From the NCBI GenBank assembly GCA_022509025.1, contig JAFLUB010000001.1, positions 1 through 64,000 of the forward strand: a stretch of 64,000 nt of DNA, written 5' to 3'. How positions within the stretch are numbered: position 1 is the stretch's first letter; each line of letters begins with the position of its first letter. This DNA comes from Oscillospiraceae bacterium (lineage in GTDB: Bacteria > Bacillota > Clostridia > UBA1381). Below are positions 1-14,851 of the stretch, in pieces. The notes below the pieces were generated by a model. The model did not search any database. It saw only the letters and a program-made list of their open reading frames with translations, and was not told the DNA's origin. The position numbers and the translations under genes were made by a program.

Positions 1-110
1 CGGTGAGCCTCCGTCATTTTTTCGCTGTCGCTCTAAAATGCCACCTCCCTCCAAAGCGCCAAAGGCGCGTTGCAGGGAGGCTAACGCATGCCATCAACAT
101 ACCGACAAAA
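1..110. repeat. Left-edge intergenic palindromic sequence
   Basis: No gene is seen here. Positions 47-93 form an imperfect hairpin in which CCTCCCT pairs with AGGGAGG, with an inner GCGCC/GGCGC arm. The first 25 bases (GGTGAG, then CCGTC, then ATTTTTTCGC) resemble the right end of the dispersed element at 13171-13314, so this may be another copy cut by the window edge. That relation is an inference from eye alignment. Confidence 0.35.
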
Positions 111-150
111 CTATAATTTAGCTCACCAACAAATTTCAATTTGTTGATAT

Positions 151-187
151 ACAAAAAACGTATGAAAACCAATTAGTTTTCATACGT
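151..187 (-). terminator. Intrinsic terminator of the GerMN gene
   Basis: ACGTATGAAAAC (158-169) and GTTTTCATACGT (176-187) form a perfect 12-base-pair stem with a 6-base loop. Read on the minus strand the stem is followed by a run of T (152-157), just downstream of the stop codon at 211. Confidence 0.85.
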
Positions 188-210
188 CACATTTGCCATA
201 TACAAATATT

Positions 211-732
211 TTACACATAATAATCAGGAATAAACGTTTCGCGCATATCTACGTATCCCATAAATTTTTTCTGGATTTCACCGTCAATGGTGAAGCGCAC
301 ATTCACAATACCATCCAATTCAGTGAGTGAATTCACGATAGAATATATCGTGAGAATTTCCAAATCACGCCCGTCCGGATGCGACTCTACCATACTGTTT
401 TTTATATCCACATATGCAATATTGTCCTTTATTCTGACAGTCATACAACCCTTCTCGTTCGGAATAAGGCGGCGGATTTTCGGATTTTCGTCATGTCCCT
501 CAATCAGAGTATCCAGCACATACTGCGCCATTCTCTTTGTACTTGTCCCGGGTATAGACGTTTTAACAGGCATAAGGCGCATCATATCTGCGTCAACAAA
601 ATATATTTTTACCGTGACAGGTTCCGGATTTACTGAGTGAGGCACAAAAAATGTGCTGATTGCCGCGGCAATTAGCAAAGCGAAAATTATATGTTTTAGT
701 ATAGTATCTTTTCTAATCGTTATAATCTGCAA
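211..732 (-). CDS. GerMN-domain protein, membrane anchored
   Basis: The protein has an N-terminal hydrophobic segment followed by an extracytoplasmic GerMN (sporulation/spore germination) domain of about 130 residues. This is the fold found in GerM of Bacillus, which acts in spore envelope assembly. Visible family features are VKIYFVD near the domain start, LIPNEKG in the middle and the closing strand around INSMVES. The most upstream ATG (745-747) overlaps the Shine-Dalgarno sequence ATGGAGG itself, so it cannot be the start. The TTG at 732, 7 bases after GGAGG, is the better start and gives 173 residues. It ends before a strong terminator. No lipobox is seen. Its substrate is unknown. Confidence 0.7.
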   Translation of the reverse strand: MQIITIRKDTILKHIIFALLIAAAISTFFVPHSVNPEPVTVKIYFVDADMMRLMPVKTSIPGTSTKRMAQYVLDTLIEGHDENPKIRRLIPNEKGCMTVRIKDNIAYVDIKNSMVESHPDGRDLEILTIYSIVNSLTELDGIVNVRFTIDGEIQKKFMGYVDMRETFIPDYYV

Positions 733-780
733 AGTAAAAACCTCCATATATTTAAATATATGAAGGAAGTTTATAGAATA

Positions 781-1032
781 TTACTGATTTTTGCTGAGTT
801 CCAACGCTCTTGCAAGCTGGTCGGGGCATGATGTTCCGCGTCCGTTACAGTTAGTGCCCTTAAGACGTCTGATTATCTCGTCAATATGCATACCCTCAGC
901 AAGCGCGCTTATTCCCTGCGTGTTGCCATTGCAGCCCCTTGTGAAGCGGACATTGCTGACAATTCCGTCATTCACTTCGAAATCAATCTGAGCGCTGCAT
1001 ACGCCCTGGGGCTGGAAACTGTATTTTGCCAT
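781..1032 (-). CDS. TSCPD-domain protein, TIGR03905 type
   Basis: Small protein of 83 residues with conserved cysteines, including the TSCPD signature near residue 66 and cysteines in GVCSAQ, RGCNGN and TNCNGRG. This matches the TIGR03905 family of clostridial proteins related to the C-terminal TSCPD domain of vitamin B12-dependent ribonucleotide reductases; its function is unknown and metal or nucleotide binding is only inferred. The start at 1032 is preceded by GGAGG at a good distance. A longer frame beginning at 1068 runs through the leader hairpin and is unlikely. It is transcribed divergently from the transaldolase gene. Confidence 0.75.
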   Translation of the reverse strand: MAKYSFQPQGVCSAQIDFEVNDGIVSNVRFTRGCNGNTQGISALAEGMHIDEIIRRLKGTNCNGRGTSCPDQLARALELSKNQ

Positions 1033-1110
1033 AATTACTCCTCCGTTTCTCCGCCGGTACAGCGGCATAAATCATAACTTAATTATACATTAATTATTTC
1101 TAATTTTCAA
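1033..1110 (-). promoter_or_regulatory. Promoter and RBS leader hairpin of the TSCPD gene
   Basis: TTGAAA (complement of 1105-1110) and TATAAT (complement of 1082-1087) are 17 bases apart. The predicted transcript starts close to 1075 and opens with GTTATGATTTATG, then a short hairpin CCGCT/GGCGG, then the Shine-Dalgarno GGAGG. The same leader architecture occurs upstream of the genes starting at 13129, 48348 and 54806. Confidence 0.6.
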
Positions 1111-1119
1111 CCGTATCTA

Positions 1120-1148
1120 TTGACTAAACAGGAAAAATTTTATATAAT
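1120..1148 (+). promoter_or_regulatory. SigA-type promoter of transaldolase gene
   Basis: TTGACT (1120-1125) and TATAAT (1143-1148) with a 17-base spacer, about 30 bases before the ribosome-binding site AGGAGG of the downstream gene. Confidence 0.75.
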
Positions 1149-1180
1149 ATATATAATAATTTAATAGGAGGAATTTATAA

Positions 1181-1831
1181 ATGAAACTATTTATAGACAC
1201 AGCAAACGTTGATGAGATAAAACAGGCCAATGACATGGGCGTTATCTGCGGCGTTACAACGAATCCCTCGCTTATAGCAAAGGAAGGCAGAGATTTTGTT
1301 GAGGTTGTTAAAGAGATTACAACTATTGTAGACGGACCAATCAGCGCGGAGGTTATTTCTCTTGACGCTCAGCAAATGGTTGAAGAGGCTAAGCCTCTTG
1401 CGGCTATACACAAGAATATAATTATCAAAATCCCGATGTGCGCAGAGGGTCTTAAGGCTGTTAAACAGCTTAAAAAGCTTGGTATAAAGACCAATGTTAC
1501 TCTTGTTTTCTCAGCTGCGCAGGCTATTCTTGCAGCAAGAGCAGGCGCAACATATGTCAGCCCGTTTCTTGGCAGATTAGACGATATCGGTTCAAACGGT
1601 ATGATTCTTATCGAAGAAATCGCCGATATTTTCAAGCTTCATGATATAAAGACAGAAATCATTGCCGCAAGCATCAGACATCCTATTCACGTTGTTGACG
1701 CGGCAAGAGCAGGCTGTGATATCGCCACTGTACCGTATAAGGTAATAGCTCAGATGATTAATCATCCTCTGACAGACAACGGTATTGACAGATTCCTTAA
1801 GGATTGGGAAACAGTTCCGAAGAGTTTATAA
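1181..1831 (+). CDS. fsa: Transaldolase / fructose-6-phosphate aldolase family (TalC type)
   Basis: At 216 residues this is the short transaldolase class that includes bacterial TalC and fructose-6-phosphate aldolase, a cytoplasmic TIM barrel forming a Schiff base. Seen motifs are the start MKLFIDTAN, the GVTTNPSL loop, the catalytic lysine in IIIKIPM near residue 85, and AASIRHP near residue 165. In the pentose phosphate pathway such enzymes move dihydroxyacetone units between sugar phosphates; sequence alone does not separate transaldolase from aldolase activity. RBS AGGAGG precedes the ATG. It is a single-gene unit between its own promoter (1120) and terminator (1849). Confidence 0.93.
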
Positions 1832-1848
1832 TTAACACAGACATAAAG

Positions 1849-1879
1849 AAGGATGTATCGCGATGATACATCCTTTTTT
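1849..1879 (+). terminator. Intrinsic terminator of transaldolase gene
   Basis: AAGGATGTATC (1849-1859) pairs with GATACATCCTT (1865-1875) and is followed by T residues. Confidence 0.9.
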
Positions 1880-1904
1880 ATGTACATAATCATGGTTAAC
1901 TTAC

Positions 1905-2050
1905 AGTTGATGATAACATAATGTACTGATTTTCTATTACATTTCCATTTGATGTCTTAATACAACAACTGTTCTGAGCATAATTATTCCGCTGCGCGGT
2001 TTACCCATACAGGGTCTGTAGACACAAAGAGGTTATTGTTTAGTAGCCAC
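1905..2050 (-). pseudogene. Duplicated 3' fragment of the cohesin/CuAO gene
   Basis: On the minus strand, ending at a TAA at 1984-1986, the sequence encodes FVSTDPVWVNRAAE, almost the same as the C-terminus of the protein at 5359-6375 (FYVSTDPVWVNRADE). The match continues into the downstream flank (1905-1983 compared with about 5285-5358, including shared ATTACATTTCC/ATTATATTTCC and CAACAAC blocks). No start or remainder of the gene is present. This is a broken copy of the tail of the neighbouring gene. Confidence 0.75.
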
Positions 2051-2091
2051 ATAAAGCAAATATCTCTGTCGCAACCTTCTTCTATTTGTCT

Positions 2092-2340
2092 TTACAAAAA
2101 GAGTTTTCTCATGTATCCGTATGCTAAAAGCTTAAAGAGGGTCTTAGGCGAGTGTTTTCGCCAAATTCTACAATATTTGTTACATATGTTTGTATAGTCT
2201 AATTCATCGCATATTTCTGATAAAAGTACTACTGGATCGTTATCGGGAATTTTACATCCTAAATTTAATGGTAAAACTACCTGATTTATTGCTCTCATTG
2301 TTGTATAATTAACCTGTTTTCTTTTAGATTTATTGTGCAA
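2092..2340 (-). pseudogene. Truncated IS1182-like transposase N-terminus
   Basis: The 82-residue frame has the N-terminal pattern of IS1182-family DDE transposases: a VVLPLNLGCKIPDNDP block, a region equivalent to the divergent helical domain, then TLFKLLAYGYMRKLF. Full transposases in this family exceed 400 residues, so only the N-terminal domain remains and the catalytic DDE region is missing. No convincing Shine-Dalgarno site is seen, and an internal ATG at 2298 could equally be the original start. It lies beside the duplicated gene tail at 1905-2050, consistent with past rearrangement. Confidence 0.7.
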
Positions 2341-2362
2341 ATTAATTATATACTATGAATGC

Positions 2363-2403
2363 AGAAAAGACCCAACCTATTTTCATGGATTTGAGTCTTT
2401 TCT
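2363..2403 (-). terminator. Weak hairpin downstream of DUF6514 gene
   Basis: AGAAAAGAC (2363-2371) pairs with GTCTTTTCT (2395-2403) across a 23-base loop. There is no clear T run on the minus strand, so terminator function is uncertain. Confidence 0.35.
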
Positions 2404-2441
2404 TTTGAGGCTTAACGCAACAACCACTTTCATTCCCCTAT

Positions 2442-2642
2442 TTACTGCTCTAAAAAATCTTCTACTGCATCATACAGATGAATCGGATCAAGATTGTACT
2501 TATTGAAATCATTTACTAAATTTTCTACTGCCGATTTATCAGTTGACACATTGTGAACTGTATACGTATCGGCATAACGTATACCGTAAACAACTACCTC
2601 CATGCTTTCTATTACTTCTTTTTCTCTTGTAACAGCGTACAC
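2442..2642 (-). CDS. DUF6514 family protein
   Basis: Small acidic protein of 66 residues. The pattern VYGIRY, then VSTDKSAVENLV, then a closing LDPIHLYDAVEDFL matches the clostridial DUF6514 family, whose role is unknown. The start codon is GTG at 2642, preceded by AGGAGGGGAG at about 4 bases. A palindrome overlaps its predicted -35 region (2674-2695), which suggests regulation. Confidence 0.7.
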   Translation of the reverse strand: MYAVTREKEVIESMEVVVYGIRYADTYTVHNVSTDKSAVENLVNDFNKYNLDPIHLYDAVEDFLEQ

Positions 2643-2663
2643 TATCTCCCCTCCTTTTTACTA

Positions 2664-2695
2664 ATTATACATAATTTTACCATATTTGGTAAAAT
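2664..2695 (-). promoter_or_regulatory. Promoter with palindromic operator candidate
   Basis: TATAAT (complement of 2664-2669) with a weak -35 TTACCA 17 bases upstream. A perfect dyad, ATTTTACC (2674-2681) and GGTAAAAT (2688-2695) around 6 bases, covers the -35 and spacer, the usual position of a repressor site. Confidence 0.45.
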
Positions 2696-3353
2696 ATTCA
2701 ATATATGAAAATAATTTGTAAATATAGCGTAAAATCCATGAAACAAAAAGGAACTACCATTTAGCCCCAAAAAGGGGGTGTTGCTTAACGCAACACCCCC
2801 ATAAAGATTACTGCTAGTATTATAGCTTGTGAAATAATATTGTGATAGCAATATAAATTTTCCTTATATATGTAAAGTGATATATTAGACACACTATATC
2901 AATCGTTGAATCACTCTATTCTCAAAATGTCTAATGCAAATACAAACAGATCCTCTTATAGCCATAGTTATATCAATAACGCATATTTAAAATCCTTACT
3001 CATGCCTTATTGTAAGTATGTAAGGTGTAGCAATAGAATTGAGGTTGTAGATATTGTTTTTAGCGTGTTGTTGGGGATAGCGTTCGATATAACAGACTAT
3101 CTATAAATTTATTAAAAATGTAATTATAAGTACTGGATTATATTTTTAGGTCTTTAGACATTACTAACACCGCTATAGAGCAATGTCAGTATGTCGCCAA
3201 AATGGCATATATCGTACTGTTCACACAAACGGATAATTAAGTAATACGGTTTATCTGTATATATTTAAAATCTAACTTAATTCATTAATTACTCACCGGA
3301 AAACCATTCATGAAAACAGGCAACATGCATATTATCGTTTATGTTTATCAGTA
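2696..3353. other. Long AT-rich intergenic stretch
   Basis: About 660 bases without a credible gene. The only structure I can support is the hairpin at 2774-2800. Short open frames at 2642-2851 (minus) and 2906-3106 (plus) lack Shine-Dalgarno sites and family resemblance. This is probably decayed sequence next to the transposase remnant. Confidence 0.6.
2774..2800. terminator. GC-rich perfect hairpin
   Basis: GGGGGTGTTGC (2774-2784) and GCAACACCCCC (2790-2800) form a perfect 11-base-pair stem with a 5-base loop. On the minus strand TTTTT follows directly, as in an intrinsic terminator, but no intact gene ends here, so it may be left over from a lost gene. Confidence 0.55.
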
Positions 3354-3794
3354 TTAAACAGTCCTGCTAAACTTCACATACGATTCTACATAATTCCAGT
3401 TGCTGTCATATGCGGTATGTGTAAGGCGCAGACGGTATGAATAATTTGAGTTGCCATAATAAGTTTCGCTAATACCGGCAAATGAATTACCTGTTGCTGA
3501 CCATGTTTTGATTGTATGCCAACCACCGTTATACTCTTGTAGTTCTACAGTCACTGCTGAGTGGTAACCTAATTGTACAGCCGTTGAACCATAACACGTT
3601 AATTTACATAATGAACCTTTTTGAAGATTATTGGACATTTGGACAATCGCAATATTCTGAACAGAGTCAGAAGGAGCGATATTGTTGACTGATGCGTCAG
3701 CACCCGGTACTGCCGCAGTCGCTGTTGCACCAATAACCAACATTAATGCCATACCTAAAGCTGCTACTTTTTTGAATAGATTTGATTTTTTCAT
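3354..3794 (-). CDS. Small secreted protein, DUF6147-like
   Basis: 146 residues starting at MKKSN with a clear signal peptide: basic start, then the hydrophobic LGMALMLVIGATATAA and a likely cleavage after alanine near residue 31. The mature part is about 110 residues, rich in Tyr, Ser and Asn, with YYGNSNYSYRLRLTHTAY, and looks like a small all-beta secreted fold resembling DUF6147 proteins of Clostridia. That family call is tentative. AAGGAGG precedes the ATG at 3794, so the upstream ATG at 3836 is not used. It is the third gene of the sigma/anti-sigma operon and is a plausible target or sensor of that system. Confidence 0.65.
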   Translation of the reverse strand: MKKSNLFKKVAALGMALMLVIGATATAAVPGADASVNNIAPSDSVQNIAIVQMSNNLQKGSLCKLTCYGSTAVQLGYHSAVTVELQEYNGGWHTIKTWSATGNSFAGISETYYGNSNYSYRLRLTHTAYDSNWNYVESYVKFSRTV

Positions 3795-3863
3795 AATAAA
3801 AACCTCCTTAATTGTTTTTTCATAAATAAAACTCAATTAAGGAGAAAATGGGGACAATTTACT

Positions 3864-4553
3864 CTAATTTTGTCCAATTAGCACGCTTTTTGCAATTTTT
3901 ATTAACTCATTTTTTTCAATATTGCCATATAGCATATATGAATGTTGCTCATCACCCCAAATCAAAGTCTTTACACTATCTTTATTTATAAAAATTACAT
4001 CTTTGTCGCTTAAAGTCAATTCTTCGACAAACGCTCCTTCTGTATCAACATTTGATATTGTATCAGCATTTTGTATAGTTAAAATAAAATACTGTTCTTG
4101 ATTTTTAAACAGTAAAAATATATTTTCATTAAGTTGCATATTATCTAATTGTATAAATCCATTTGGAATATACCCAATATTTATGTCATCATCAGAATAA
4201 AAACCTGCTTCACCGTCATCAAAATGATAGTTAGTATTTGGTTCTTCTGATTTCATTATAAAATTCAAAAATTTCGCACGCCACGCGTTCACACTGAATA
4301 CACTTACAGACACAACAACTACTACTATCAGAAGAATACATGCACAGCGCATTAAATACCGTACAAACTTTTTCTTAAAAAGTTTACGTTGTTCATCTCT
4401 GAACAGTTTTCTCATCTTTTGTTCATGTTCCTCCGAAAATATAATATTTTCTGGTTCTTGTAGTTTTGTTCCTATATTTTTATCTGCCTGAATTGCAGCT
4501 TCAGTCAGCAACATATCAAAAACTTCATCAAAAGAGCTGTCATTTCTATTCAT
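3864..4553 (-). CDS. DUF4367-type anti-sigma factor
   Basis: 229 residues: a cytoplasmic N-terminus of about 85 residues, one membrane span (ACILLIVVVVVSVSVFSV, about residues 70-90), and an extracytoplasmic DUF4367-like domain with a predicted membrane-proximal YIPNGF motif. This is the usual build of clostridial ECF anti-sigma factors, which hold the sigma factor at the membrane until a surface signal arrives. Its ATG overlaps the end of the sigma gene by 8 bases and its Shine-Dalgarno GGAGGG lies inside that gene, so translation is probably coupled. Confidence 0.8.
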   Translation of the reverse strand: MNRNDSSFDEVFDMLLTEAAIQADKNIGTKLQEPENIIFSEEHEQKMRKLFRDEQRKLFKKKFVRYLMRCACILLIVVVVVSVSVFSVNAWRAKFLNFIMKSEEPNTNYHFDDGEAGFYSDDDINIGYIPNGFIQLDNMQLNENIFLLFKNQEQYFILTIQNADTISNVDTEGAFVEELTLSDKDVIFINKDSVKTLIWGDEQHSYMLYGNIEKNELIKIAKSVLIGQN

Positions 4554-5103
4554 ATTTATCCCTCCTGTTCAGGCTTCGGATTAGCATATGCTTTGCTCTA
4601 GTCAATCTCTTTTTTACCGTTTCCACATTTATATTCAGGAGTTTGGCAATTTCTTCTCTTTTGTAATTGTGTACACGCCTTAAAATGAATACATCCCGAT
4701 ATATAGGTGGCAAAGCTTCTATTGCTTCTACGATATCATTAATAGTTTCTCTTTTGATTACAATATCCAGAGAATCCGATACTGTTTCACTATCATCGGA
4801 GGACACATATTCTGTGGCATAATCATATTGATTAAGTGGTAGTTTTGCTTTTACCATATCTATAGCTGTATTTCTGCATATAATAACCAAGTAGCTTCTT
4901 GTTTGAGGAATATTATTCTCATTTATCTTATGTAAGTTCCTTATAACTTTCACAAAGGAATCATGGATTGCGTCTTCTGCTAATAACTGGTCGTGTAAGA
5001 TTTGGTATGCTTCTTTATACATCAGATTTTTGTATTTCTCATATAATCGCATTACCTTTTCTCTATCATCATTATTTTCTATATCCATAAAAATGACAAG
5101 CAT
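4546..5103 (-). CDS. ECF-type RNA polymerase sigma factor
   Basis: 185 residues with sigma region 2 (LYEKYKNLMYKEAYQIL, then AEDAIHDSFVKV, about residues 20-60) and region 4 (ALPPIYRDVFILRRVHNYKREEIAKLL, followed by VETVKKRLTRA, about residues 128-175). It belongs to the SigV/SigW-like extracytoplasmic function group and should direct RNA polymerase to its own and related promoters. AGGGGG stands 6 bases before the ATG. It begins a three-gene operon with an anti-sigma factor and a small secreted protein. Confidence 0.9.
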   Translation of the reverse strand: MLVIFMDIENNDDREKVMRLYEKYKNLMYKEAYQILHDQLLAEDAIHDSFVKVIRNLHKINENNIPQTRSYLVIICRNTAIDMVKAKLPLNQYDYATEYVSSDDSETVSDSLDIVIKRETINDIVEAIEALPPIYRDVFILRRVHNYKREEIAKLLNINVETVKKRLTRAKHMLIRSLNRRDKYE

Positions 5104-5247
5104 ATACTACCCCCTCTTTCTTCAGATTAATTGTGGCACAAATTTTTCAATTATACCACATTATATCTAAGATTTCATCATTTGTATATCAAAAATACCA
5201 CGTAATAAAACGTGGTTCGATAAAAGCTGACACCAATAATATATAGA

Positions 5248-5282
5248 ATAGATATCCACCCGCTATGCGAGTGGATATCTAT
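5248..5282 (-). terminator. Hairpin downstream of cohesin/CuAO gene
   Basis: ATAGATATCCAC (5248-5259) pairs with GTGGATATCTAT (5271-5282), with CGC/GCG extending the stem. The T run on the minus strand is weak. It lies between the stop at 5359 and the sigma gene start at 5103. Confidence 0.65.
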
Positions 5283-5358
5283 TGTTGCTCATGCATAATA
5301 ACATTCTATTATATTTCCGTTTATCATCTCAATGCAACAACCACATCTCTGATTGCAA

Positions 5359-6375
5359 TTATTCGTCTGCACGGTTTACCCATACAGGGTCTGTAGATAC
5401 ATAGAAATCATTACCTAAATACTCTGTAGAACCCGATGAGTCAACGCTTTCGTCTATAGCATCAAGAAGAAGCGATGAATTATAACCAATATCTGTTCTA
5501 TATCCATTTGATAGTTCGAATGCGCCTTCTTTACCGTTGATTGAGCGGAATGTCAGTTTCATCACTTTTCCGTCAGTTTTAGCTGCATGTTCTGCGTCGA
5601 TAGTAACATAAACAGCCTTGACCATGTCATCGCTAAACTTATCGTTAGCCACGCCCATAGCATCTTCAAATGTAGAATCACCATTCATAAGCTGCGCGTC
5701 TACAAATTCAAAGTTTTCCTTGTTGTAGCGGACTGTTGCAGTAACACCCGAAACAAATTTACCATCAGGAATATTTGACGCTTCTATGTATATATCAACT
5801 GTTTCACCTTCTGCTACTGTATCTGAACCTGTTGAAAGAGCAAATGCCGGTACACCGTCATAAGAGGCAGGAGCGTCTGCAGTGGTAATATTAATTGTAT
5901 ACGCATCGCCGTCCCATTTTACGTCCGCATTAAGAGCCTCGCTTATCGCGCGCAGAGGAATCATTGTTCTGCCTGTATCCTCCATAATTAACGGAGCAAC
6001 ATCAAGAGCTACAAGAGTTTCGGGAGCTTCAAAGCCGCCTGTTGTGAAAATTGAAGCAAACATATTGCTCATATCATAAACTCTCATTGTGTTGTCATCA
6101 ATAGCAAGATTTATAATAGTATTACGGTCTTTGCTTTCAACTTCAACCTCTCTTTTTTCTCCATCCCATGTAACCTTAGCGCCCATTGCTTCAAAAACGC
6201 CTCTTGCCGGAACAACCGTATGGCCCTCACCGAGTATAACCGGTTCCTGATCGGCAAACATAATCTGTGCATTGTTGATAAATACCTGAGGCGCTTTATC
6301 ATCCGCCATAGCTGCTGTTCCTAAAGCTGAAACTACAGCCGCTGCAGCAACAATACATATTAACTTTTTCTTCAT
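5359..6375 (-). CDS. Secreted CuAO-N-domain protein with cohesin-like domain
   Basis: 338 residues beginning at MKKKLIC with a signal peptide cleaved after AMA. Residues about 28-175 carry two copper-amine-oxidase-N (stalk) repeats, with VVPARGVFEAMGAKVTWDG and MIPLRAISEALNADVKWDG. Residues about 180-320 look like a cohesin-type beta sandwich: VAEGETVDIYIEASNIP, SGVTATVRYNKENFEF, then GKVMKLTFRS. In cellulosome-like systems cohesins bind dockerins, and a dockerin protein lies 3 kb upstream. No SLH, sortase or transmembrane anchor is visible; the CuAO-N repeats may bind the wall. A damaged copy of its tail sits at 1905-2050. The cohesin call rests on pattern only. Confidence 0.72.
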   Translation of the reverse strand: MKKKLICIVAAAAVVSALGTAAMADDKAPQVFINNAQIMFADQEPVILGEGHTVVPARGVFEAMGAKVTWDGEKREVEVESKDRNTIINLAIDDNTMRVYDMSNMFASIFTTGGFEAPETLVALDVAPLIMEDTGRTMIPLRAISEALNADVKWDGDAYTINITTADAPASYDGVPAFALSTGSDTVAEGETVDIYIEASNIPDGKFVSGVTATVRYNKENFEFVDAQLMNGDSTFEDAMGVANDKFSDDMVKAVYVTIDAEHAAKTDGKVMKLTFRSINGKEGAFELSNGYRTDIGYNSSLLLDAIDESVDSSGSTEYLGNDFYVSTDPVWVNRADE

Positions 6376-6419
6376 AAAAATCACCATAGCCTTTCTGCCC
6401 ACAAACAGTAATGAAAATT

Positions 6420-6548
6420 ATTAACGCGCTTATTGTGGGCGGATAAGGCGTTAAGTGGTGATTATGCCCATGTGCGTTTTTCGAAGCATGCGAGAAAAAA
6501 TTCGCGCGGGCAATCAAATCCGGTTAACGTGATTTTTCACGTTAATCC
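6420..6548. repeat. Palindromic intergenic element ending in TTTTTCACGTTA
   Basis: Within the 433-base gap 6376-6808 this segment holds several inverted repeats, the clearest being TTAACGTGA/TTCACGTTAA around 6512-6536. Its TTTTTCACGTTA end matches the ends of the elements at 13171-13314 and 25777-25988. The rest of the gap up to 6760 is plain AT-rich sequence in which I see nothing. Confidence 0.45.
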
Positions 6549-6760
6549 TTCCTTTCTAATCAAAGTAATATAATTGTAACATAAAAATCTGAAATATACA
6601 ATAAAAAAATAAAATTTTATATAGCATTAGCAAAGAAAATGTAGTATATTAATCGAAATATGTACAAATTCTCGAAAATATGGGAATAAACAGGATATAA
6701 ATATATTTTGATGTGATTTGGGTTAATAGGTAAATTGCAATTTATAATTCAAAGAAAGCA

Positions 6761-6791
6761 TAAAAAGAACAGTCCCGAAGGACTGTTCTTT
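6761..6791 (-). terminator. Intrinsic terminator of SLH gene
   Basis: AAAGAACAGTCC (6764-6775) and GGACTGTTCTTT (6780-6791) form a perfect 12-base-pair stem with a CGAA loop; the minus strand continues with T residues. Confidence 0.9.
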
Positions 6792-6808
6792 AAATATTCA
6801 CTATGGAA

Positions 6809-9145
6809 TTATTTTACGAATGTATCATAGAGAATCTTAGCAGCCTGAGCTCTTGTTGCATTGAGCATCGGACCAAACTCTGTTTCTGATACACCATTGA
6901 TGATACCTGCGTCAGCCAATGTCTGAACTGCTGTAGCAGCATAAGCTGAAACCTGATCAGCATCAGCAAATGCATATGATCTGATAGCTGTTAACGGCTT
7001 ATCTGTTGCCTGAGCAGCCTTCATTGTCATAAGAGCCATATCCTGTCTTGTAATCAGGTTGTTCGGACCGAAGTTGCCATCGCCGTAACCTGAAACAATA
7101 CCGAAGTAGCTTGCAACTGATACTGCATGATAATACCAAGCATCTGTCGGAACATCAGCGAATGATGAGTTTGCGCTCATGCTTGTCAGACCAATTGCAC
7201 CAACTAAGATCTGAGCATACTCAGCTCTTGTGATGTTAGCATTCGGATCGAAGATTGTTTCACTTCTACCAGCAACTATGCCCTTTGCTGCAAGAGCTTC
7301 AATAGCTTCTCTTGCCCATTCAACAGAACCAAGGTCTGTGAACTTAGCTGCGCCGGTACCTGACGGATTGCCAACGAAGATGTACTTATTATCGCTGTCG
7401 TCACTTGATGAGTCACTACCGCTATTATCTTTTGAAGGACCGCTGGTAGGACTGATTTTTACAACAACATCCTTTGTTGTCTTCAGTGGTTCTTCAGCTC
7501 CTTCATAGCTGTATGTAGCATATAATGTAACCTCACCATTTACAAGAGCTGTGAATGTGAACTTATTGTCAGCGTCCTTAACCGGTCTGATTGGACCAAT
7601 ATAATCCTGGTCAGAATCATCCTTTAGCAAGACAGCGTATGTACCACCATCAGGTGCATTACCTGACTTAGTAACAGTAAGAGTTACCTTGTCGCCAACC
7701 TTTACACTTGTATTATCAGCCTTAAGTGTTAATGTAGGCGCAGTCGGTGTAGCTGTCGGCTGTGACGGTTTATCGTCTTCTGTTTTACCATCAGTTACAT
7801 TCTCATAGTCACCAGACTCATTCTTGTCGTTGATCTGAGCATAAATGCTTACGCCATCATTGTACTCGAATGTGATACCAGCAAGAATCTCTTCAAGGGT
7901 CATACCGAGTTCATCGTTGTATACACCTGCAAGAAGGTTATCCAACTGCTGCTTTGTCAGCTTAGTACCATTGAAGTATGCAACCCAATCTTCACCGTAT
8001 ACAGCCTCTGAACCGTCCTTCTTAGTAGCAGTAACTACAGCATAAGCCTCATCGCTGAGTTCAGGAACTTCACCCTTAATAATATCTCCAACAAGATTTG
8101 CCCCATGAGCCTTGCTCTCACCTGCAGGAACCTTTATCCATGCAGCAGGAAGCTTTTCATCTTCAGGAACATCACCTAAGTATAACTCACCCTCAGGCAA
8201 TACAAGTGATGACTCTTCAAGCAACTCGAAGATAGCGTCCTCTTTAAGCGCCTCATTAAGGTTAATTGTTATTGTACCTATAAGGTTATCATTCTTATCT
8301 GCTGCTACAGCATTTGCTAATGCAGCTGAAGCGCCATATACCTTTGTTGCCGCATCAATAAACTCTGTCGGCTTAAGGTCTGTGATACCTGTTGTGAATT
8401 CTACATCCTTATAAACTTCAGGCAACTGAATCTTTATTGTGTATCCGTTGATTTTCTCTGCACCAACATATTTTGCATTGATTACAATCTTTGTGGTTGT
8501 ACTTGCAGCCTTATTATACTCAAGCACGATACCCTTTGTTACATCAACCTTATCCTTTGTCGGCGGAAGAGTAACCTCTGGATCTACTGACGGAGGATCT
8601 ATTACTTCCGGTTCATCTGAGTTAGGATCTTTCGGAACCTTTACTGAAGCAGCAGGAAGCTTTTCATCTTCAGGAACATCACCTAAGTATAACTCGCCCT
8701 CAGGCAATACAAGTGATGACTCTTCAAGAAGTGTGAATGTATGTGATGCTGATAACTGCTCATTGAGGTTAATTGTTATTGTACCTATAAGGTTATCATT
8801 CTTATCTGCTGCTACAGCATTTGCTAATGCAGCTGAAGCACCATATACCTTTGTTGCCGCATCAATAAACTCTGTCGGCTTAAGGTCTGCGATACCTGTT
8901 GTGAATTCTACATTCTTATAAACTTCAGGCAACTGAAGCTTTATTGTGTATCCGTTGATTTTTTCTGCGCCAACATATTTTGCATTGATTACAATCTTTG
9001 TGGTTGTACTTGCAGCCTTATTATACTCAAGTACAATACCCTTTTCGATATCCGCTGCGCTTGTGGTTACTGTGAATGCCGCAAATACAGAGAATATCAT
9101 CGATATAGCGCAAATAAACGCTATAATTTTTCTGTTTTTGTTCAT
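6809..9145 (-). CDS. S-layer homology surface protein with duplicated module
   Basis: 778 residues. A signal peptide (residues 1-31) is followed by two nearly identical modules of about 140 residues, roughly residues 34-175 and 203-344, each opening with KGIVLEYNKAASTTTKIVIN and containing INGYTIK, LPEVYK and NLIGTITINLNE. A spacer region, an Ig-like module (LTLKADNTSVKVGDKVTLTV, about 475-570) and a Ser/Asp-rich linker follow. Three SLH domains (about 590-778) close the protein and should hold it on the pyruvylated secondary wall polymer. The duplicated modules resemble a carbohydrate-binding/cohesin-like sandwich, but I cannot name them. RBS AAAGGGG precedes the ATG. The neighbouring dockerin and cohesin-like genes suggest a surface scaffold role. 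Confidence 0.85.
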   Translation of the reverse strand: MNKNRKIIAFICAISMIFSVFAAFTVTTSAADIEKGIVLEYNKAASTTTKIVINAKYVGAEKINGYTIKLQLPEVYKNVEFTTGIADLKPTEFIDAATKVYGASAALANAVAADKNDNLIGTITINLNEQLSASHTFTLLEESSLVLPEGELYLGDVPEDEKLPAASVKVPKDPNSDEPEVIDPPSVDPEVTLPPTKDKVDVTKGIVLEYNKAASTTTKIVINAKYVGAEKINGYTIKIQLPEVYKDVEFTTGITDLKPTEFIDAATKVYGASAALANAVAADKNDNLIGTITINLNEALKEDAIFELLEESSLVLPEGELYLGDVPEDEKLPAAWIKVPAGESKAHGANLVGDIIKGEVPELSDEAYAVVTATKKDGSEAVYGEDWVAYFNGTKLTKQQLDNLLAGVYNDELGMTLEEILAGITFEYNDGVSIYAQINDKNESGDYENVTDGKTEDDKPSQPTATPTAPTLTLKADNTSVKVGDKVTLTVTKSGNAPDGGTYAVLLKDDSDQDYIGPIRPVKDADNKFTFTALVNGEVTLYATYSYEGAEEPLKTTKDVVVKISPTSGPSKDNSGSDSSSDDSDNKYIFVGNPSGTGAAKFTDLGSVEWAREAIEALAAKGIVAGRSETIFDPNANITRAEYAQILVGAIGLTSMSANSSFADVPTDAWYYHAVSVASYFGIVSGYGDGNFGPNNLITRQDMALMTMKAAQATDKPLTAIRSYAFADADQVSAYAATAVQTLADAGIINGVSETEFGPMLNATRAQAAKILYDTFVK
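8127..9041 (-). repeat. Two intragenic direct repeats, 507-base period
   Basis: Blocks of about 410 bases, near 8635-9041 and 8128-8534, are nearly identical at DNA level with a period of 507 bases (169 codons). The near absence of silent changes points to a recent duplication or ongoing gene conversion inside the SLH gene. The units differ mainly around NEQLSASHTF versus NEALKEDAIF. Confidence 0.85.
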
Positions 9146-9251
9146 TATTATGTACCCCTTTCAAAACATCCTATAATATAATTAAGTTATTTAACTACTT
9201 ATGAAAAGATAATTAAATTACTAAATTATCAACCAAGACAATTTATAAGAA

Positions 9252-9869
9252 TTAGTTACCAACTGCTAATGTCTTACCTACATACTGTCTGTCACGGTCA
9301 CCTGATGTGTACTTGAGGATTTCAGTAGCATCACCGGCAGTAATTCTGTTGTTACCGTCACAATATGCGGCCTTATTGAAGTCTTCATCTTTAATCTTTG
9401 TCTTATCACCTGCGCTGTACTGCAGAACTACAGTAGCGTCACCAGCAGTAATTCTGTTGTTACCGTCAGCGTCACCTACGAGTATCTCCTCACCTGCAGA
9501 ACCAATTGTAAATGTACCTGTCTTAACAACAAAGTTGTCATCAACGTAGCTACCTACCATAACAGTGTATGTACCGTCATCTGTCGGAGAGCCCATAAGA
9601 CCCATCTCGCCAAACTTGCCGTCTGCTACCTGATTGATGTAAAGAATGTCTGTGTCTTTAACTTCTTTAACATTTGTCTTCGGAGCGAGAACGAGGATTG
9701 TTGCATCCTTCGCAGCAAACTCTGTTGTGAGTTTCAGATTACCGGTTGTCTCGTCATATGTACCTTCAACGTCACCGGTTACTGATGCAGCCATAGCAGA
9801 AGTTGCAACCGCAGCTGTTACTGCCGCTACTGCCGCGCATGATAGAAATAGTTTTGTAAATTTCTTCAT
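9252..9869 (-). CDS. Secreted dockerin-domain protein
   Basis: 205 residues with a signal peptide (cleavage after AMA, near residue 27). Residues about 30-125 are a small beta-rich domain of unknown type. Residues 130-200 are a type I dockerin: two Ca-binding repeats each with NNRITAGDAT and a following helix. Repeat one keeps Asp-Asp-Asn-Asp at loop positions 1, 3, 5 and 12; repeat two has Tyr instead of Asp at position 1 (YCDGNNR), so one calcium ligand is missing. Dockerins dock to cohesins, and the cohesin-like protein at 5359-6375 is an obvious candidate partner. RBS AAAAGGGG precedes the ATG. No catalytic domain is present, which is unusual for a dockerin protein. Confidence 0.85.
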   Translation of the reverse strand: MKKFTKLFLSCAAVAAVTAAVATSAMAASVTGDVEGTYDETTGNLKLTTEFAAKDATILVLAPKTNVKEVKDTDILYINQVADGKFGEMGLMGSPTDDGTYTVMVGSYVDDNFVVKTGTFTIGSAGEEILVGDADGNNRITAGDATVVLQYSAGDKTKIKDEDFNKAAYCDGNNRITAGDATEILKYTSGDRDRQYVGKTLAVGN

Positions 9870-10079
9870 TTTGATTTACCCCTTTTCTAAAATAAATTTT
9901 TTTGCTTTTTGTTTGAGTGTCTGTTTTCACACGACACGCATACAAGTTACATTCATATACCTACATTATAAACTATGTTAAAGCAAATTTCAATTCTTTT
10001 TTGCATTAAGTTTGTTTTTTGTGAAATATACACAAATAACAAAACTATATTTGTTGCTTTTGCATATATCTACATATGC

Positions 10080-10778
10080 TTAATAATTAACAAGGGTTTC
10101 AACCTCTTCCTTTGAAAGCTCCCGCATCTCACCCGGAGCAAGCTTTTCATCAAGTTTCACTCCTCCTACCGAAACACGCTTCAGGTAGGTTACGCTTTTT
10201 CCGCATCGGGCGCACATACGCTTTACCTGGTGGAATTTGCCCTCCGCAATTTCAATATATACCTCATGGGGATTATCGGTTATTTCCAGAAGCGCAGGAC
10301 GCGCTGTGAACTCCTTAAACTCCATCCCTGCCGCAAATGTTTCAATATCCTCCTCTGCCATCGGCAAATCCACACACGCAAAGTATCTCTTTTTAACATT
10401 CTTTCCCGGAGACATTACCGAATGAGCAAACTGACCGTCATTAGTCAGAATAAGCAGACCCTCCGTGTCTATGTCAAGCCTTCCTACGGGATACACGTCA
10501 AAATGTTTGTATTCCGCAGGGACAAAATCAGTCACGGGCGGATAACGTTTATCCGATACGGCGCTCACATACCCCTTAGGCTTATTCAGCATCAGATAAA
10601 CGTATTTGCGGTAAATAAGCGTTTTTCCGTCCACCTCTACAACACTGTCCTCTCTGACCTGTTCGTCGCATTTTTTACACACTCTTCCGTCTGCAACGAC
10701 AATTCCGCGTTTTACTAAGTCCTTTACCTCACTGCGGCTGGCATATCCGCAGCCGCTTATATATTTGTCTATACGCAT
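10080..10778 (-). CDS. 16S rRNA pseudouridine synthase, RsuA/RluB family
   Basis: 232 residues. An S4 RNA-binding domain (residues 1-60, MRIDKYISGCGYASRSE) precedes a pseudouridine synthase domain with the catalytic Asp in GRLDIDTEGLL (about residue 102) and the later EGKFHQVKRM motif. Such enzymes convert a specific uridine of ribosomal RNA to pseudouridine in the cytoplasm; RsuA acts on 16S rRNA, but paralogues (RluB, RluE, RluF) act on 23S rRNA and the target cannot be read from the sequence. It stands alone, after the terminator of the amino-acid transporter operon. Confidence 0.92.
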   Translation of the reverse strand: MRIDKYISGCGYASRSEVKDLVKRGIVVADGRVCKKCDEQVREDSVVEVDGKTLIYRKYVYLMLNKPKGYVSAVSDKRYPPVTDFVPAEYKHFDVYPVGRLDIDTEGLLILTNDGQFAHSVMSPGKNVKKRYFACVDLPMAEEDIETFAAGMEFKEFTARPALLEITDNPHEVYIEIAEGKFHQVKRMCARCGKSVTYLKRVSVGGVKLDEKLAPGEMRELSKEEVETLVNY

Positions 10779-10803
10779 TGGATTGCTCTCCTTAAATGAA
10801 ACC

Positions 10804-10839
10804 GGGGTGTATCAAGAATTATTTATCTTGATACACCCC
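10804..10839 (-). terminator. Terminator of amino-acid ABC operon
   Basis: GGGGTGTATCAAGA (10804-10817) pairs perfectly with TCTTGATACACCCC (10826-10839), with a loose T run on the minus strand. Confidence 0.85.
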
Positions 10840-10859
10840 CTGATTAAATTTCAACATTA

Positions 10860-11669
10860 TTATTCGTTATACTGGATTGCAAGCTCGTCCATCTTGCCTG
10901 ATGATATCATTTCGGCAAGAGTGGTGTTAATCTTATCAAGAAGCTCTGTGTTGCCCTTCTTTACGGCAATAGCATATTCCTCTGTTTCAAACGCCTCGCT
11001 ATCCTCAACAACCTTCAAGCCGTTCTTTTCAGCAAGCGCCTTACCTGTGGCAGAGTCGATAACAACAGCGTCAAGCTTACCGTTCTTTACCTCCTGAACA
11101 AGGTCAAGACCTCTGTTAGCTCTTGTAATCTTGTCCTCAGGAATCTCTAAATCTTCAGTAACAATAGAATCGCCGGTGTAGCCAAGCACAACACCCACCT
11201 TTTTATTATTCTTTAAATCCTCAGCTTTAGTGATATCGGTATTATCAGCAGCAACTACCATAACCTGAGCAGCAGTGAAATATGTATCAGAGAAGTCAAC
11301 ATTCTTTCTTCTCTCATCATTAGCGGTCATACCTGCGGCAACAAAGTCAACCTTACCGGTGCTTACAGCTGCGATAAGCCCGTCGAACTCCATATCGGCA
11401 ATTTCAAGCTCCATGCCCATATCATCAGCAATCTGCTTTGCAATCGCAACGTCAATACCATCAAATTCACCAACAATACCTGATGTCGTTGTGAACTCGA
11501 ACGGCTGGAATGCGGCATTTGTACCCATTATAATCTTGTTTCCGGCATTATCGTTTGCCACATCAGCATTATTCTCCGCCTTATTTCCTCCTGCACAGCC
11601 GGCAATAGCCGCAACTGACATTACCGCTGCCGCACCAAGAGCAACAGCCTTAAGTAAACCTTTTTTCAT
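10860..11669 (-). CDS. Polar amino-acid ABC transporter substrate-binding lipoprotein
   Basis: 269 residues with a lipoprotein signal peptide: basic start, hydrophobic stretch, lipobox IAGC with the lipidated Cys near residue 25. The mature protein is a type II periplasmic-binding fold of SBP family 3 (GTNAAFQPFEF, EFDGIDVAIAKQIA, then DFSDTYFTAAQVMV). It captures an amino acid outside the membrane and hands it to the permease and ATPase encoded just upstream. Which amino acid cannot be said; glutamine, arginine and cystine binders look alike here. RBS AGGAGG. It is the last gene of the operon 13129-10860. Confidence 0.93.
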   Translation of the reverse strand: MKKGLLKAVALGAAAVMSVAAIAGCAGGNKAENNADVANDNAGNKIIMGTNAAFQPFEFTTTSGIVGEFDGIDVAIAKQIADDMGMELEIADMEFDGLIAAVSTGKVDFVAAGMTANDERRKNVDFSDTYFTAAQVMVVAADNTDITKAEDLKNNKKVGVVLGYTGDSIVTEDLEIPEDKITRANRGLDLVQEVKNGKLDAVVIDSATGKALAEKNGLKVVEDSEAFETEEYAIAVKKGNTELLDKINTTLAEMISSGKMDELAIQYNE

Positions 11670-11732
11670 CTTTTAGTCCTCCTAAAATTCCTTTAAATTT
11701 TGTTTTATATTTAACACCTTAGTGCCAATAAA

Positions 11733-12455
11733 CTACAGTACCTTACTTAAAAATTCCTTTGTTCTGTCATTTTTCGGGTTTGAGAATACCTCCTCGGGAG
11801 TACCCTCCTCCACGACGTATCCGCCGTCCATAAACAGAACTCTCGAACCAACCTCACGCGCAAAGCCCATTTCGTGTGTGACAACAACCATTGTCATTCC
11901 GGCGTTTGCAAGATTCTTCATAACCGTCAGAACCTCACCTACCATTTCAGGGTCGAGAGCCGAAGTAGGCTCGTCAAACAGCATTATATCAGGGTCCATT
12001 GCAAGCGCGCGCGCTATCGCTATTCTCTGCTGCTGTCCTCCGGAAAGCTGCGCCGGATACGCGTCAGCCTTATCGGCAAGACCTACCATCTCCAGAAGCT
12101 CCACTGCACGTTTCTCAGCCTGTTCTTTCGGCATCTTTTTTACCTTAACCGGCGCAAGCGTTATATTATCCTTAACGCTCAGATGCGGGAACAGATTAAA
12201 CTGCTGGAACACCATACCCATTTTCTCACGTATTTTATTAACGTTCGTCTTAGGATTAGTTATGCATTCGCCCTCTATCAGAATCTCTCCGTCAGTCGGC
12301 ACCTCCAGAAGATTCAGACAGCGCAGAAATGTGGATTTTCCCGAACCGGAAGGACCGATTACAACCACCTTTTCACCTTTTTTTATGTGTTGGTCTATAC
12401 CTTTAAGAACCTCGAGATCTCCAAAACTCTTTTTTAATCCCGTAACCTTTATCAT
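11733..12455 (-). CDS. glnQ: Polar amino-acid ABC transporter ATPase
   Basis: 240 residues with all ABC ATPase motifs: Walker [10 protein letters not shown] (about 34-42), Q-loop, signature [15 protein letters not shown] (about 135), Walker [14 protein letters not shown] and the H-loop VTHEM. It matches the GlnQ/HisP group that powers amino-acid import at the inner face of the membrane. Its ATG overlaps the permease stop in an ATGA junction (12452-12455), so translation is likely coupled. The gene symbol is by family only. Confidence 0.93.
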
Positions 12456-13129
12456 CGTTTATCCGCCTTTCTCATTCTCTCTTCGAATTTGTTCAGAATT
12501 ATGCTGATAATTTTAATTACTACATAATATATAACAGCAATTGATAATAGCGGAACAAGATAATCGTACGTGCGTCCCTGCACCTTTCTGGCCGCGCCGA
12601 CAAGGTCTATATTGCTTATCATACCGACAACCGCCGTTTCCTTAATCAGCACCACGAACTCATTACCGAGCGCAGGCAGAATATTTTTCATCGCCTGCGG
12701 CATGATTATGCTTCTCATTGTCTGTCCCGAAGTCATGCCCAAAGAGCGCCCTGCCTCAGTCTGACCGGCATTTACAGAGAGAATTCCGCCCCTCACGATT
12801 TCCGCTATGTACGCGCCGCTGTTTATACCGAACGCAATAGAGCCGATAATCCACGCCGGCACATTTATCGGCGCAAGGATTACAAAGTTGATTATAAGAA
12901 GCTGCACCATTGTCGGCGTGCCGCGTATAACATCTATGTACACTCCCGAAACCGCTCTGAGTATTTTACTCTTACTGAGACGCATAAGTGCCATCAGAAT
13001 ACCTATAATACATCCCAGCATAACAGCAAAAAGCGTTATAAGCATCGTGTATCCCAAACCTCTGACAAACCATAACCAACGCCCGTCTGTCACAAAGGTG
13101 TCTGCCACCCTGCTCAGAAAATCAGCCAT
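12452..13129 (-). CDS. Polar amino-acid ABC transporter permease
   Basis: 225 residues starting at [13 protein letters not shown] lies 6 bases upstream, while the longer frame to 13216 runs into a repeat element and is rejected. About five membrane helices are seen, with the HisM-type inner membrane loop ([22 protein letters not shown]) that contacts the ATPase. It forms the membrane channel for the binding protein and ATPase encoded downstream. It is first in the operon and its RBS is embedded in the recurrent leader hairpin (13130-13170). Confidence 0.92.
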
Positions 13130-13170
13130 GTTAATCCTCCATTCCGCCGCTTTGCGACATAAATCATAAC
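13130..13170 (-). promoter_or_regulatory. RBS leader hairpin of permease gene
   Basis: Minus-strand sequence GTTATGATTTATG, then stem GTCGC/GCGGC with an AAA loop, then GAATGGAGG and the start codon. The first 13 bases are identical to the leader at 1033-1076, although the genes are unrelated. Confidence 0.55.
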
Positions 13171-13314
13171 GTGGAAAAGGCCGGTCGCAAACTTCGTTTG
13201 CTGCTCGCCCATGCAACCGGGAGTCAAGCAGATTGCCCTTTTGAGGAGCGCCGACGTATGCGGATACTTCAAGCTCCGATAAAGGGTGAGATGCGCCGTC
13301 TATTTTTCACGTTA
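13171..13314. repeat. Dispersed structured element, copy A
   Basis: Starts GTGGAAAAGGCCGGTCGC and ends TATTTTTCACG. It is about 80 percent identical by eye to copy B at 25777. Hairpins GCAAAC/GTTTGC (13187-13201) and GGAGC/GCTCC (13245-13277, with an inner GTAT/ATAC) are kept in B with paired substitutions (GCAAAT/ATTTGC and GGAAC/GTTCC). CCCTTT and AAAGGG enclose the second hairpin. The ends form an inverted repeat (ACGTGGAAAA, TTTTTCACGT). There is no coding capacity. It fills the gap between mnmE and the amino-acid permease. Confidence 0.75.
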
Positions 13315-13436
13315 TCATCCCCCATTTTTGTTTATAAGCTATCTACTATAATATCAAAAATTCGGACAGTTGGCAATACTTATTTGAAATTTTCTGCATT
13401 TTTACTGTATAATTATTCATTTAACGGTTATAAAGG

Positions 13437-14807
13437 TTATTTACCCACACAAAATTCATGGAATATGGCTGTAACTATATCATCCGACACGGTTTCACCG
13501 GTAATTTCGCCGAGAGCGTCGATTGCAATATTAAGGTCGATTGAAGCTATATCAGACGGCATATTCATATCAATCGCCTCATATACTCGTACGAGCGCCT
13601 CTTTTGCCTTTATAAGCGCGGTCTTATGGCGCATGTTTGTAATGACTGCACCGTTAGAAGCAGTCATTTCTCCGAGATTATAAACTCGCCTTATTTCTTT
13701 GGCAAGTTCGCTAAGACCCATGCCTGTCATTGCGCTCACTTCAAGCACTATGCTTCCCGCCGCCTTATTCCTCACCGCTTCAGTGTATTTGCTTTGTCCC
13801 AAATCAGCCTTATTTATAAGCACAATACGGTTTTTATGTTTAGTGGCGCAGAGTACCTCGATATCCTCATCGTTAAAAAAAGAAGTACCGTCTATCATTA
13901 CTATGACAAAATCCGCGCTGTCGATAGATTTTCTTGATTTCTCGACGCCTATTTTCTCCACGGTATCGTCCGTTGCGCGGATTCCCGCCGTATCAATCAG
14001 AATAAGCGGTATTCCGTCAAGGTTTATATATTCCTCGATAACATCACGCGTTGTACCGGCAATGTCGGTCACTATCGCCCTGTCCTCCCGTGCAAGGGCG
14101 TTAAGGAGCGAAGACTTACCCACGTTCGGCTTTCCTACAATCGCAGTCCTGATACCTCCGCGTATTATCTTTCCGCTATCGGCGGTGGCAAGAAGATTAT
14201 TAATCTTACTTTCACATTCACGCGCGGTTTTTGCTATGTCCTCTACGGTTATATCCTCAAGGTCTTCATCCGGATAGTCTATTGTTACCTGCATCTGCGC
14301 CGCGAGATTTACAAGGGATTTCCTCACTGACTGTATCTCTCTTGAAAGCGCGCCTTCAAGCTGTGACAGGGCGCTTCGTCCGGCAAGCTCGTTTGTGGCG
14401 TTTATAATGTCAATTACCGCCTCCGCCTGCGACAGGTCTATCCTGCCATTAAGAAATGCGCGTTTCGTGAATTCTCCGGGTTCCGCCATGTATGCTCCTG
14501 CGCGGATAAGAGTATCCATCACTGAATGAGAAGCTATGCTTCCGCCGTGAGTGCTTATTTCCACCACGTCCTCACGCGTAAATGTTCTCGGAGCGCGCAT
14601 TAAAGTGACGAGTACCTCGTCTACCTTATCGCCGCGCTCATTTTTTATAAATCCGTAATGCACGGTGTGTGTTTCACAATCGGCAAGGCGCTTTTTACCA
14701 AAAAACACCTTGTCCGCTATCGCCACCGCGTCAGCGCCGCTTATCCTTATAACGGCTATACCGCCGTTCCCCTGAGGCGTGGAAATTGCCGCTATGGTTC
14801 TTGACAT
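13437..14807 (-). CDS. mnmE: tRNA uridine-5-carboxymethylaminomethyl GTPase MnmE
   Basis: 456 residues, the usual size. An N-terminal tetrahydrofolate-binding domain (TIAAISTPQGNGGIAVIRISG) is followed by a helical domain interrupted by the G domain: G1 GKPNVGKSS (about 225), G3 DTAGIR (about 272), G4 NKAD (about 333). The C-terminus ends FCVGK, preserving the cysteine of the CxGK motif. With MnmG it modifies the wobble uridine of certain tRNAs. MnmG is not in this window; the usual trmE-gidA pairing is absent here. Its own Shine-Dalgarno GGAGAGG lies 44 bases after the PHP gene stop. Confidence 0.97.
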   Translation of the reverse strand: MSRTIAAISTPQGNGGIAVIRISGADAVAIADKVFFGKKRLADCETHTVHYGFIKNERGDKVDEVLVTLMRAPRTFTREDVVEISTHGGSIASHSVMDTLIRAGAYMAEPGEFTKRAFLNGRIDLSQAEAVIDIINATNELAGRSALSQLEGALSREIQSVRKSLVNLAAQMQVTIDYPDEDLEDITVEDIAKTARECESKINNLLATADSGKIIRGGIRTAIVGKPNVGKSSLLNALAREDRAIVTDIAGTTRDVIEEYINLDGIPLILIDTAGIRATDDTVEKIGVEKSRKSIDSADFVIVMIDGTSFFNDEDIEVLCATKHKNRIVLINKADLGQSKYTEAVRNKAAGSIVLEVSAMTGMGLSELAKEIRRVYNLGEMTASNGAVITNMRHKTALIKAKEALVRVYEAIDMNMPSDIASIDLNIAIDALGEITGETVSDDIVTAIFHEFCVGK

Positions 14808-14851
14808 TTTTATCCTCTCCGTTCCATATATAAAGGGTCTAAGGATAAAAC

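Follow-up and report, generated by a model that had tools for sequence, protein, structure and literature searches.

Cohesin-dockerin pairs are best known for plugging enzyme complexes together, and a dual binding mode is part of the cohesin-dockerin background. In the available portion of PMC11557425, an SLH-anchoring scaffoldin is defined by the pairing of an SLH domain with one or more cohesins, and a nonSLH-anchoring scaffoldin as a cohesin combined with a wall-interacting domain such as a Cu-amine-oxidase-like one. As the accessible part of PMC3413522 describes them, SdbA (C. thermocellum) and ScaC, ScaD, and ScaF (A. cellulolyticus) carry cohesins and C-terminal SLH repeats on one secreted chain, and OlpC (C. 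thermocellum) and ScaG (A. cellulolyticus) each have one cohesin after a PF07833 domain.

We analyzed a window of 64,000 nucleotides, the first part of a contig from an Oscillospiraceae bacterium, in which three genes that we call DOC, SLH, and COH lie next to one another. A preliminary description of this DNA had claimed three adjacent minus-strand genes, none with an enzyme, and both points are borne out: the open reading frames are where it placed them, all on the minus strand, and no catalytic family scores above its own Pfam cut-off in DOC, SLH, or COH. The features of the locus are:

5247-5283, minus strand: terminator-like hairpin 3' of COH (17 pairs)
5362-6402, minus strand: COH gene (open reading frame list)
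5545-5838, minus strand: cohesin of COH, Pfam-matched part (Pfam, hhalign)
6764-6791, minus strand: terminator-like hairpin 3' of SLH, between SLH and COH (12 pairs plus a T-rich tail)
6812-9145, minus strand: SLH gene, 778 aa, stop at 6809-6811 (open reading frame list)
6839-6970, 7034-7165, and 7214-7345, minus strand: three SLH repeats (Pfam)
7736-8140, minus strand: middle domain of SLH, residues 336-470 (conserved in genus orthologues)
8195-8548, minus strand: core of cohesin-fold module 2 of SLH, residues 200-317 (AlphaFold model matched to cohesins)
8702-9055, minus strand: core of cohesin-fold module 1 of SLH, residues 31-148 (89% identical to module 2)
9255-9869, minus strand: DOC gene, 205 aa, stop at 9252-9254 (open reading frame list)
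9270-9485, minus strand: dockerin of DOC (PF00404 in Pfam, profile against solved dockerins, two near-identical 24-residue EF-hand-like repeats)
9965-9993, minus strand: promoter-like site TTGAAA-17-TATAAT 5' of DOC (11/12 consensus match; such sites are consensus matches only, 35 in the region against 27.7 expected)

DOC consists of a signal peptide, an Ig/FN3-like beta-sandwich domain, and the C-terminal dockerin; SLH of a signal peptide, two cohesin-fold modules, the middle domain, an Ig-like domain, and three SLH repeats; and COH of a signal peptide, a CuAO-N domain, and a cohesin. By the definitions given above, the SLH protein would count as an SLH-anchoring scaffoldin, its cohesin being recognized by predicted fold and its SLH domain by Pfam, and COH, judged by its Pfam domains, as a nonSLH-anchoring one. 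Like SdbA and ScaC/ScaD/ScaF, the SLH protein carries its cohesins and C-terminal SLH repeats on one secreted chain; unlike in them, its cohesins have in most species diverged beyond what Pfam recognizes, a candidate dockerin gene shares its operon, and neither an enzyme nor a primary scaffoldin was found as its client. COH, with a CuAO-like PF07833 domain followed by one cohesin, has the architecture of OlpC and ScaG as presented in the accessible part of PMC3413522, which agrees with the suggestion in the preliminary description that CuAO-N replaces a classical anchor. The SLH modules also resemble the non-cellulosomal cohesins of C. perfringens (GH84C, GH33) and Archaeoglobus fulgidus, which are the best Foldseek or high VIA matches (2w1n, 2jh2, 2vo8, 2xdh), but the C. 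perfringens cohesins are carried on glycoside hydrolases according to their PDB titles, whereas here there is no enzyme and anchoring is through SLH repeats. By profile, the solved dockerins closest to that of DOC are those of ScaH, which we take to be a protein of R. flavefaciens, and of R. bromii Amy10 and Amy16; these sit on scaffold or amylolytic proteins, whereas DOC carries just an Ig-like domain. The locus departs from known scaffoldins in having a candidate dockerin gene within the operon, in lacking an enzyme, in cohesins that Pfam mostly does not see, and in repeats that are homogenized yet diverging.

Because a terminator-like hairpin stands between SLH and COH and none is listed on the minus strand between DOC and SLH, DOC and SLH look like one unit and COH like a separate one, probably outside the DOC-SLH transcription unit. 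Terminator-like hairpins are in excess in this part of the window as a whole (17 in positions 3000-10300, against 4.1 expected). Rfam has no match in window positions 1-16000, and NCBIfam gives a usable name for none of the three proteins. Among 43 open reading frames of the window, SLH ranks second, DOC fifth, and COH seventh in codon adaptation, with EF-G, EF-Tu, GAPDH, and PPDK of the same genome (genes named from their sequences) as reference; this codon bias suggests that DOC and SLH are made in quantity. Just downstream on the same strand (window 3357-5103) are genes for a small secreted protein, a DUF4367 protein, and an ECF-type sigma factor, the last two at 3867-5103.

The dockerin of DOC is only barely above the cut-off of Dockerin_1 (PF00404; E 8.5e-5, 23.1 bits against 22.9). 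Together with this match it has the two Ca-binding loop-helix repeats of a type I dockerin, loop 2 being without its first Asp. The repeats are 67% identical over 24 residues, loop 1 reading D-A-D-G-N-N-R-I-T-A-G-D and loop 2 Y-C-D-G-N-N-R-I-T-A-G-D, with Tyr at the first ligand Asp, as first described. Because the Y-C-D start of loop 2 also occurs in DOCs from other genera (G036, L133; G049, L159), the Tyr loop is a recurring variant. A profile of 12 DOC orthologues searched against solved structures matches ScaH best (8ajy_B, E 2.6e-8), with 9qf8_A at E 5.9e-7. In the structural model of DOC the dockerin part has pLDDT mostly below 50, and structure comparison was therefore confined to the N-terminal domain, which is modeled with good pLDDT as an Ig-like sandwich (best Foldseek match 4g5a_A, E 5.8e-4).

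COH scores above both relevant Pfam cut-offs, for Cu_amine_oxidN1 (E 2.6e-26) and for Cohesin (PF00963; E 3e-6, 27.9 bits against 24.1), and hhalign aligns its cohesin with cohesins of the genus (prob 94.5, E 8.1e-8). Contrary to the Pfam match, a PDB sequence search with the COH profile returned no cohesin at E up to 1. Translation of COH likely begins at the internal ATG of MKKKLICI, which is the start of most orthologues. A second COH copy, 62% identical, is at G000:C21:15474-16487 (L098), divergent from a gene that we take to encode a diadenylate cyclase, and this context recurs in several genus genomes.

The modules of the SLH protein are more elusive. Pfam finds the three SLH repeats (E 2.8e-39) and, weakly, the Ig-like domain; the two duplicated modules first described are 89% identical. 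Pfam Cohesin (PF00963) does not match the window's two modules, and it matches 4 of 24 SLH-module sequences at an E value of 0.1 or lower; in G003 and G058, the orthologous SLH protein next to DOC scores above the cut-off, with 41.3 and 24.7 bits, respectively. A PDB sequence search with the modules found no cohesin, and hhalign connects them weakly with other cohesins of the genus (prob 17, E 0.0014) and does not link them with the COH cohesin, so that their place in the cohesin family rests on the predicted fold and the G003 and G058 orthologues. A model of residues 200-470, built from the window and L102-L110 sequences only (mean pLDDT 83), has the cohesin 4uyq_A as its best VIA match (Z 12.4, rmsd 2.5, 127 residues aligned, 10% identity); among the 50 VIA matches listed, the first 37 are cohesins (Z 12.4 to 9.9), and the first non-cohesin, an adhesin-like sandwich, follows at Z 9.7. 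With Foldseek, the same model matches 2w1n (E 6.1e-8) and 2jh2_C (E 2.1e-5, TMt 0.71), the C. perfringens cohesins falling between E 6.1e-8 and 4.4e-5. The modules are thus cohesins by predicted fold, and the cohesin fold supposed in the preliminary description is present in COH by Pfam and in SLH by modeling. The own genome has 81 SLH repeat matches, and SLH is therefore one of many SLH proteins there.

The distribution of these genes was followed through 70 genomes of the family, in which the named relatives are uncultured Clostridia MAGs. The DOC profile matches in 50 of the 70, near full length in 43 and in 15 of 17 genera; the SLH profile matches in 28; and COH is near full length (query from position 30 or before to position 300 or beyond) in 40, counted from the search rows listed. 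DOC and the next gene are adjacent, on the same strand and in the same order, in all 12 genus genomes with both in view. At 30 further DOC loci, a same-strand gene comes next in 26 (12 SLH proteins and 14 others); the partner is cut by a contig end in G036 and G065, and G041 and G027 end at DOC. When the 14 non-SLH next genes were scanned, the Cohesin cut-off was passed only in G067, from another genus (E 8.3e-13, with Cu_amine_oxidN1 at E 1.7e-41); the G056 gene is below cut-off (E 0.01), and none of the other 12 matches Cohesin at E 0.1 or lower. In other genera (L144, L146, L147, L149, L151, L152, and L154-L160), DOC is followed by a secreted non-SLH protein of 300-470 aa, most without a recognizable cohesin, and the alignment of these partners is very diverse.

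COH adjoins the DOC pair in only 7 of the 29 genomes that have DOC and COH both near full length (G000, G008, G009, G010, G014, G034, and G047). The window's order DOC-SLH-COH is repeated in G034 and G047, from another genus, and in G013 COH is on the contig of the pair, ∼5.5 kb away. Across genomes, it is DOC together with the gene after it that is conserved as a unit. A fixed three-gene cluster, the form in which the preliminary description presented the locus, was rejected as the unit, both because the terminator-like hairpin sets COH apart and because COH is not next to the pair in 22 of the 29 genomes.

A new observation, as read from the aligned sequences, is that the repeats of DOC and SLH are homogenized inside any one protein but diverge from species to species. 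In 20 species, the two modules of an SLH protein share 66-98% identity (0.79 in the L089 genome), whereas between these species the modules average 28% identity and the SLH repeats 51%. In 12 genus genomes, the module core (columns 38-115 of the module alignment) has 95% amino-acid identity within a protein and 90% at fourfold sites (404 sites), the module flanks have 62% and 66%, and between species the module has 24% and 44%. Within a protein, agreement tends to be highest at the module columns that vary most among species (Spearman -0.21, p 0.03). The identity at silent sites speaks for gene conversion or repeated duplication, rather than for protein-level selection alone. The dockerin halves are 68% identical within a protein versus 25% between species (95th percentile 39%), and the best match of 71 of 80 halves is their own twin; two repeats are present in 40 of 42 DOCs, with a second repeat not seen in two. 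In G043, a single dockerin repeat goes with three modules. A selected set of six dockerins other than DOC from these genomes has halves that are 31-48% identical over 15-21 residues. A literature search found no paper joining cohesin and dockerin with "concerted evolution," and "gene conversion" is absent from the papers among the matches listed; a search for Monoglobus found nothing.

We consider it probable, if some way from certain, that DOC and SLH together make up an operon encoding a cohesin-dockerin assembly of the cell surface that is neither enzymatic nor cellulosomal, and that DOC uses the SLH-anchored cohesins to dock its Ig-like domain. The three SLH repeats would hold the SLH protein on the cell wall with its two N-terminal cohesins outward; secreted DOC would plug its C-terminal dockerin into these, and its small Ig-like domain would thereby be displayed on the cell. 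COH would be another cohesin anchor, of the OlpC/ScaG type and with CuAO-N instead of SLH repeats, and may take the same or other dockerins. The SLH cohesins, and likewise the DOC dockerin halves, would be kept alike by gene conversion or repeated duplication, and since they are alike within a protein and diverge fast between species, each species would have its own plug and socket. The binding, its stoichiometry, the abundance of the proteins, and the function of the displayed domain are what we infer from these patterns. If true, this two-gene, enzyme-free version would show the cohesin-dockerin interaction as a general means of decorating the cell surface, with a reach, going by near-full-length DOC, of 43 of 70 genomes and 15 of 17 genera in one Clostridia family. 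The ∼20 diverged natural cohesin-dockerin sets with duplicated halves are candidate orthogonal pairs for engineering, and they also make testable why two halves persist in dockerins.

We prefer the SLH modules as the partner of DOC because of operon linkage and the shared mode of evolution. The main rival, which we regard as unlikely, is that the DOC dockerin binds the COH cohesin and that the SLH modules bind, for example, another surface protein or a glycan. In ∼65 correlation tests in all, with nominal p values and distances near saturation, dockerin distance tracks that of the COH cohesin given CuAO-N across 15 species (r 0.41, and never below 0.31 when any one species is left out) and in ten genus genomes (r 0.48, nominal p 0.0075), and within the genus it does not track CuAO-N itself (r -0.20). 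The COHs of G023 in one of these covariation sets, and of G016, G022, G023, and G049 in another, were left out. However, the N-terminal domain of DOC also tracks the COH cohesin (r 0.32, 20-species set), so leftover phylogeny may explain the covariation, and in ten genomes of other genera the dockerin correlation is weaker (r 0.19, nominal p 0.10); we regard it as suggestive. Between the dockerin and the SLH modules, co-divergence has nominal p 0.04 in 12 species and 0.001 in 20 species (r 0.26 given the SLH repeats), but it is carried by the pair G002-G005, and r is 0.02 or 0.04 once G002 or G005, respectively, is left out; pairwise co-divergence of dockerin and SLH modules is thus not shown, and we dropped it as evidence. 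The covariation tests conflict as to which cohesin is the partner of DOC. Gene order is divided too: the gene after DOC in G067 encodes Cohesin plus CuAO-N, and COH adjoins the pair in the seven genomes named above, but in the other 22 DOC and its next gene stay paired with no COH adjoining, and G005 and G011 have DOC where near-full-length COH was not found.

If the SLH cohesins are the partner of DOC, a more elaborate arrangement can be imagined, although we think it improbable: an enzyme-free, self-assembling network in which each dockerin half of DOC grips a cohesin, stapling neighboring two-cohesin SLH proteins into a lattice, while gene conversion matches the repeats of both partners within the cell and phages, the host, or similar outside pressure drives a species-specific lock and key.

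More improbable still is a cellulosome-like system, in which the SLH and COH cohesins take dockerin-bearing enzymes encoded elsewhere and DOC is one non-catalytic client. Both architectures fit the SLH-anchoring and nonSLH-anchoring scaffoldins as set out in the available portion of PMC11557425, and other dockerins do exist: a whole-genome search found further ones in the own genome (87.6% complete), and G005 has 14 dockerin matches. However, Pfam scans found no catalytic domain in three further proteins of the own genome, two with a dockerin and one with a cohesin, nor any enzyme domain in the four scanned of the 14 in G005, and these dockerins differ in type from that of DOC, 13 protein ends in G005 sharing one type; several dockerin types can therefore coexist in a genome.

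The least probable reading, that the SLH modules are cohesin-fold adhesion domains (MSCRAMM/pilin-like fold) and the DOC dockerin is a relict or self-associating, can draw on VIA matches of the module model to UafA (Z 9.6), SpaD (9.4), ClfA (8.9), and Cnm (8.9), on the Tyr that weakens the site in Ca loop 2, and on the two DOCs without a visible second repeat, but cohesins outrank all adhesins (best Z 12.4 versus 9.7), orthologous modules in G003 and G058 are above the Pfam Cohesin cut-off, and 40 of 42 DOCs retain two dockerin repeats.

Several other dockerin and cohesin arrangements occur in these genomes. The uniform dockerin type of G005 (FLAGDIV...YDLNRDGK; L112-L124) is found at the end of about a dozen large surface proteins, and beta-helix or Cthe_2159 domains occur in some of them. 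G004, which is 8% contaminated, has three copies of a trio (L125, L126, L127) comprising a large protein, an SLH protein with a cohesin match, and a small dockerin-ending protein. Frames with a dockerin between two cohesins are found in G012:C21, G008:C45, and G014:C55 (L130, L131). The own genome also has an open frame of 17,651 codons (L004-L006; G000:C23, from 657, minus strand) with a weak dockerin-like end (E 0.041) and a repeat text that is presumably RCC1-like.
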